Shown here: positions 750 to 911 of the stretch, piece after piece | How positions within the stretch are numbered: the stretch's first letter is position 1 | Layout of the letters: every line of letters starts with the position of its first letter | Source: an uncultured Verrucomicrobiota bacterium | GTDB taxonomy: Bacteria; Verrucomicrobiota; Verrucomicrobiia; Limisphaerales; UBA8199 | Direction of reading: 5' to 3' | Assembly: GCA_903873945.1 (NCBI GenBank) | Contig: CAIQQM010000059.1 | Span: forward strand, 1-44,475 | DNA: 44,475 bases | Program-made: the position numbers and the translations under genes | The notes under the pieces: model-generated | Database searches by the model: none | What the model was told of the DNA's origin: nothing | What the model saw: the letters and a program-made list of their open reading frames with translations, nothing else

Positions 750-778
750 TTGACGCAGCTTGAGCCATTCACTAGATT
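750..778 (+). promoter_or_regulatory. Candidate sigma70-type promoter of the ilvB leader
   Basis: TTGACG (750-755, five of six matches to the -35 consensus) is followed after exactly 17 bases by TAGATT (773-778, four of six matches to the -10 consensus). A start site about 7 bases further on would fall near 785, only a few bases before the leader-peptide ATG at 788, so the transcript would be nearly leaderless. That would explain why no Shine-Dalgarno sequence precedes the leader ORF. Assigned by inspection only. Confidence 0.5.
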
Positions 779-787
779 TTCCGCCGA

Positions 788-859
788 ATGTTAGGAAATA
801 ACCGACAAGTCGTTCTGGCCGTCGTCCTGGTTGACGCCGCCGTCGGCGCTTGTCGATAG
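788..859 (+). CDS. ilv-type attenuation leader peptide (23 aa)
   Basis: A 23-codon ORF (ATG 788, TAG 857-859) too short for routine gene calling. It encodes six Val and three Leu, with the core VVLAVVLV at residues 8-15. This is the hallmark of branched-chain amino acid leader peptides such as E. coli IvbL, where ribosome stalling on Val/Leu codons senses charged-tRNA supply. It sits between a candidate promoter and a terminator hairpin, directly upstream of acetolactate synthase, the first common enzyme of Val/Leu/Ile synthesis. Its last codons and stop overlap the segment that would otherwise form the antiterminator, as attenuation requires. Composition, position and RNA folding agree; translation is not demonstrated. 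Confidence 0.75.
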   Translation: MLGNNRQVVLAVVLVDAAVGACR

Positions 860-887
860 TGATTGAGTTTCGACAAGAACCCACGGC
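803..887 (+). promoter_or_regulatory. Attenuator: alternative 1:2 and antiterminator 2:3 helices upstream of ilvB
   Basis: Segment 1 (CGACAAG, 803-809) is complementary to segment 2 (CTTGTCG, 849-855). The same segment 2, extended to CTTGTCGA (849-856), is also perfectly complementary to segment 3 (TCGACAAG, 870-877). The second pairing continues outward: after a short internal loop G845-G846 pair with C880-C881, and GCCGT (839-843) pairs with ACGGC (883-887). The 2:3 helix therefore consumes the whole 5' arm of the terminator at 880-888, making the two structures mutually exclusive. A ribosome stalled on the Val codons at 809-832 would cover segment 1 and favour 2:3; one that reaches the stop at 857-859 would cover segment 2 and release the terminator. 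Confidence 0.7.
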
Positions 888-911
888 TGGAAAACGGTCG
901 TGGGGTTTTTT
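878..911 (+). terminator. Intrinsic terminator (attenuator) before ilvB
   Basis: The stem pairs 880-888 (CCCACGGCT) with 896-904 (GGTCGTGGG), with G-U pairs at the loop end and a loop of GGAAAAC. An uninterrupted run of six T follows at 906-911. It lies about 40 bases before the likely ilvB start at 951 and downstream of the leader stop codon, which is where an attenuator terminator belongs. Confidence 0.72.

Follow-up and report, generated by a model that had tools for sequence, protein, structure and literature searches.

A probable valine-dominated leader-peptide attenuator upstream of ilvB in the Limisphaerales (Verrucomicrobiota)

The region upstream of ilvB in an uncultured verrucomicrobial genome very probably acts as a ribosome-mediated transcription attenuator by which ilvB is expressed according to the supply of valyl-tRNA, with help from leucine codons. 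Leader-peptide attenuation is classically known from E. coli, and the lineage studied here is one of soil-and-water bacteria. A sequence-only reading of the same DNA had proposed a Val/Leu leader-peptide attenuator in front of ilvB, and the comparative evidence supports this proposal in a form dominated by valine: the parts lie in the window in the order required, they are conserved among relatives, the helix between segments 2 and 3 covaries, and three folding states are recovered when the ribosome is placed at different positions.

Leader region of ilvB in the window

The window (the whole stretch of 44,475 nucleotides that was analysed) is contig C59 of a draft genome of 3.48 Mb in 312 contigs. 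Its ilvB, the sole copy found in that genome, has its nearest named relatives in the Limisphaerales (Verrucomicrobia subdivision 3), an order within the Verrucomicrobiota. The gene stands alone, with a glycosyltransferase gene next downstream; the ilvN of this genome lies on another contig (G000:C36), and a branched-chain amino acid (BCAA) leader was not detected before it.

Leader ORF, segments 1, 2 and 3, and terminator follow each other in the order that a ribosome-mediated attenuator requires (Table 1). Read directly from the window, the -10 box TAGATT is separated from the leader ATG by 9 nt, no Shine-Dalgarno-like sequence precedes this ATG, and the valine codons of the complete leader start at 809, 812, 821, 824, 830 and 842, its leucine codons at 791, 815 and 827. 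The inner antiterminator helix (849-856 with 870-877) is paired at 8/8 positions and the outer helix (839-846 with 880-887) at 7/8, with one C-C mismatch; the terminator stem pairs at 10/10 positions before the T6 run, and the outer helix and the terminator both use 880-887. The leader stop codon abuts 849-856, and a ribosome there would mask strand 2. The fold z-score is -2.5. The coordinates given in the sequence-only reading hold, with one correction: the protector strand 803-809 pairs with 849-855 and not, as had been given, with 849-856.

Table 1. Coordinates of the features of the ilvB leader region (window positions) and of the related element upstream of leuA
Feature	Position	Strand	Details
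Predicted sigma-70-type promoter	750-778	+	-35 TTGACG 750-755, 17-nt spacer, -10 TAGATT 773-778
Leader peptide MLGNNRQVVLAVVLVDAAVGACR, 23-codon ORF	788-859	+	ATG 788, stop TAG 857-859 (direct reading)
Regulatory codons	809-832	+	Val 809, 812, 821, 824, 830; Leu 815, 827 (direct reading; Val run kept in the order)
Segment 1, protector strand, CGACAAG (codons Arg-Gln)	803-809	+	7/7 pairing with 849-855
Segment 2	839-856	+	839-846 GCCGTCGG and 849-856 CTTGTCGA; encodes the conserved peptide end AVGACR
Segment 3, TCGACAAG	870-877	+	same sequence as segment 1 repeated
Intrinsic terminator	880-910	+	stem 880-889/895-904, loop 890-894, T6 905-910
ilvB, biosynthetic acetolactate synthase large subunit, 620 aa	951-2813	+	TIGR00118, 670.7 bits (cut-off 538.35)
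Sister attenuator before leuA, same genome	L083 201-319 = G000:C224:2352-2470		leader VNWNPDLLPSNALLLCCAAVGF with Leu codons, then terminator; covariance-model match

Conservation, covariation and related leaders

We fetched ilvB with its upstream region from relatives, all of the same order, and located the gene in 53 loci; the window is counted among them, and one locus is truncated at a contig end. A promoter box TTGAC, a Val-rich leader and a terminator were present in register in 49 of the 52 scorable loci, the three exceptions (L026, L027 and L047) being partial or diverged. Among these 49 loci the upstream genes differ and the spacings from promoter to leader to terminator are nearly fixed. 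A set of named genomes, which overlaps with the first set, gave 24 positive loci out of 25 at the order level, the 25th being cut by a contig end. Limisphaerales-type ilvB with the leader was also found in metagenome-assembled genomes titled Proteobacteria, Klebsiella pneumoniae, Akkermansia muciniphila and Omnitrophota (L109, L114, L115, L123), titles that appear to be wrong.

In nearly all of the 48 relatives TTGAC and a -10-like hexamer, spaced by 15-18, lie about 6-13 nt before the leader start, and T3, T4, A6 and C7 of the promoter are invariant in the alignment. The leaders of the 49 loci comprise 22-30 codons with a consensus of roughly M-x-x-N-I-R-Q-V-x-L-x-VVVV-x-D-A-V-G-A-C-R; they start with ATG (40), GTG (7) or TTG (2), and their residues are 27% Val, 9% Leu and 3.5% Ile. 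Valine is encoded by GTC (131), GTA (98), GTT (53) and GTG (45), all four codons occur in the run, and the start, the open frame and the stop are maintained in 49/49. The terminator, followed by T5-T9, is conserved throughout the aligned loci.

Because the structures compete, RNAalifold returns the terminator only, and the switch was therefore scored by named structures, on the alignment of 49 sequences against 500 shuffles and with five measures. For the antiterminator (839-846/880-887 plus 849-856/870-877) 82.5% of cells are paired, seven pairs have changed on both sides (18 such cells versus 5.2 in shuffles), and none of the 500 shuffles scored as high on any of the five measures; when the partner strand is shifted by 1-3 columns, pairing falls to 28-55%. 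The sequence-only reading had named a lack of conservation in relatives of the Val/Leu-rich ORF or of the paired segments among the outcomes that would refute it; both are conserved. Compensatory changes, visible in the alignment for example as CCTGTCGA/TCGACAGG in L025, TTGTTG/CAACAA in L050 and TTGCC/GGCAA in L049, are found mostly in the inner helix, the outer helix being largely invariant. The outer helix almost invariably uses GCC for Ala, while the third bases of the following Val and Gly codons, for which pairing is not needed, vary, a sign of RNA constraint beyond coding. The terminator stem is paired in 98.4% of cells. The protector (803-809/849-855) is paired in 82% of cells in the relatives, with weak covariation hardly above that of the shuffles.

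The gene that follows the sister element on C224 is 2-isopropylmalate synthase (leuA). From 30 order-level leuA loci, of which 29 were readable and 20 were aligned, nearly all of the readable ones show a Leu-rich leader, mostly starting with GTG and ending in AAVGF/L or similar, followed by a terminator. The consensus has the codons GGCAGTCGGGTTC paired with GAACCCCACTGCC, an antiterminator matched to this element, and its strand 2, too, sits directly ahead of the stop, in the final codons. Codon identity thus follows the pathway product, valine before ilvB and leucine before leuA, and this is the strongest comparative argument for sensing by the ribosome. By its share of the leader residues, valine would be the main signal at ilvB, with leucine presumably sensed by the separate leuA attenuator. 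A Val leader MKPFASVLVVARVVVVG with a terminator precedes a stand-alone ilvN in one relative (L218, G017:C215, upstream of 1501), and was not seen in the other 13 ilvN loci examined. At hisG and trpE of the order, no His or Trp leader with a terminator was found in the stretches scanned.

Outside the order the detector fired on two of 51 ilvB loci (Opitutales, Chthoniobacter, planctomycetes, Nitrospinae, Victivallales). The match in Chthoniobacter was rejected, its ORF being unlike a leader, and the one plausible equivalent among these distant loci is a Victivallales leader. In other classes of the phylum four loci (L086, L090, L094 and L099, from G167, G310, G418 and G181) carry BCAA-rich leaders of different sequence with terminators before ilvB, which are probably separate attenuators. 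A phylum-wide scan with a covariance model gave weak matches of mixed value, some preceding ilvB with other leader peptides, among them those in these four genomes, and others due to chance. One 45-bit match to the attenuator model (L085 405-541, G370:C11), with the leader MSILVAVSAVVAKRDHAAGQLRLE, is followed by a SAM-methyltransferase-like ORF and no obvious ilvB.

Folding states, proposed mechanism and alternatives

Folding with ribosome masks, computed for the window by itself and for the 49 loci, reproduces the three classical states. With no ribosome, the protector exceeds a probability of 0.5 in 34/49 loci and the terminator in 48/49, several relatives having no protector. With the ribosome at the stop codon, which the sequence-only reading had rightly placed over the segment to be masked, the terminator exceeds 0.5 in 49/49 and no other named structure forms. 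With the ribosome on the Val run and a transcript that ends in the terminator loop, the outer helix exceeds 0.5 in 41/49 and the inner helix in 43/49. When the full-length transcript is folded to equilibrium with a stalled ribosome, the terminator is still favoured in 46/49 loci, by 8-11 kcal/mol in the window, and antitermination must therefore be kinetic. The same calculation on E. coli gave 4.7 kcal/mol for trp, 11.8 for leu and about 23 for his, a range that includes the values of the window; since these attenuators share the equilibrium advantage of the terminator and must likewise work kinetically, it is no argument against attenuation here.

The mechanism that we infer, from the start of transcription through leader translation and stalling to the regulation itself, would operate as follows. 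RNA polymerase would start a few nucleotides before the ATG, and a ribosome would begin the leader almost at the 5' end. With ample charged tRNA-Val it would reach the UAG at 857 and cover segment 2, so that the terminator (880-904) could form and transcription would stop at the T-run before ilvB. If Val-tRNA is short, the ribosome would stall on the Val run and cover segment 1. Segment 2, left free, would pair with segment 3 and with the terminator's 5' arm (839-856/870-887) ahead of synthesis of the 3' arm, and the polymerase would read through into ilvB. Without translation, pairing of segments 1 and 2 would yield the terminator by default.

Three other explanations of the region were weighed. 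The hairpin might simply end transcripts of the upstream metallopeptidase-like gene, or terminate constitutively, the ORF being incidental; the upstream ORF does end at 725 on the same strand, about 155 nt ahead of the terminator. However, that gene was not found at any of the other ilvB loci fetched from the order, where leader, promoter and terminator persist, which ties the terminator to ilvB and not to the upstream gene. A promoter, moreover, lies between the upstream gene and the terminator, and covariation links the terminator arm to a second helix; we regard this explanation as highly improbable. If the leader acted mainly on translation, through loading or reinitiation of ribosomes at ilvB, instead of through termination, this would suit its near-leaderless start and the lack, by direct reading, of a strong Shine-Dalgarno sequence before ilvB. 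Against this, 91 nt separate the leader stop from the start of ilvB, and the terminator lies in this gap; it is a perfect intrinsic terminator that keeps its T5-T9 in all aligned loci and competes with a covarying helix. We regard this explanation, too, as highly improbable.

Segments 2 and 3 and the terminator are highly conserved as RNA, which would also be expected of a riboswitch or protein-binding element with direct sensing of a metabolite, the ORF being a by-product of the conserved RNA, and in other phyla ilvB is controlled by ppGpp or other RNA elements (PMC8632094, PMC11109978). Yet the conserved RNA is confined to the competing strands, the leader keeps its frame, start and stop while using all four Val codons in the run, and the codons switch to leucine before leuA, which makes such an element very unlikely. 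Rfam contains no leader or riboswitch family that matches at the gathering score, either; the only match, to His_leader at 23.7 bits (cut-off 49), probably reflects a likeness of layout only.

Known systems and meaning

The attenuator proposed here resembles those of E. coli and other enterics (trpL, hisL, leuL, ivbL/ilvL) in a peptide rich in the amino acid of the pathway, in the order of protector, antiterminator and terminator strands, in a stop codon beside strand 2 and in similar energetics. Unlike in the enteric attenuators, to which no sequence relation was detected, the leader is near-leaderless and has no Shine-Dalgarno sequence, valine codons precede a stand-alone ilvB and leucine codons a separate leuA, the final peptide codons double as strand 2, and the terminator leaves room for the inner 2:3 hairpin to form alongside it. 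Outside Proteobacteria and Actinobacteria, leader-peptide attenuators have been noted in Firmicutes (PMC2965389), and for ilvB, leaders have been described or predicted in Actinobacteria (PMC1262725, PMC10272879) and in Leptospira and the ilvB-OMG set (PMC10272879). The leader of Corynebacterium ilvBNC (ilvB-II motif; PMC10272879, PMC11857589) likewise combines a BCAA leader before ilvB, a terminator/antiterminator switch and transcription that begins one nucleotide from the leader start codon, but has a peptide of 15-17 codons, another RNA sequence and other strands, and belongs to an ilvBNC operon of Actinobacteria. The ilvB-OMG and Leptospira ilvB motifs (PMC10272879, PMC8632094) are similar in being predicted attenuators with BCAA-rich uORFs before ilvB in other phyla; they appear to differ from the leaders described here in that Thr codons belong to them. 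For Verrucomicrobiota we found no report of such an attenuator in the open-access papers searched. The sequence-only reading had expected a known mechanism to be extended to a poorly studied group; what is new is the phylum and not the mechanism, leader-peptide control outside enterics being already known or predicted.

The distance from the -10 box to the leader start, mostly 7-11 nt for ilvB and 6-7 nt for leuA, places the predicted start of transcription within a few bases of the start codon or on it, suggesting that both leaders are near-leaderless. This trait, which had been put forward as an unusual variation, is predicted and conserved in the order. In C. glutamicum transcription of ilvBNC reportedly starts one nucleotide ahead of the leader (PMC11857589), and the trait is therefore already known in another phylum. 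We tentatively consider, with more doubt than conviction, that the Limisphaerales possess a two-element leaderless BCAA attenuation regulon, in which translation of both leaders sets in at the extreme 5' end of the mRNA and the mechanism makes use of the leaderless start. If so, leader translation could, e.g., require a ribosome to initiate at a bare 5' AUG/GUG while the protector hairpin is still unfolded.

The finding would place classical attenuation of BCAA synthesis in the Verrucomicrobiota. It yields small leader genes of a kind often overlooked by annotation pipelines, and simple predictions for codon swaps (valine before ilvB, leucine before leuA). The 49 ilvB leaders, together with the leuA leaders from nearly 30 genomes, form a natural, order-wide alignment for the study of attenuator evolution, including that of near-leaderless starts.
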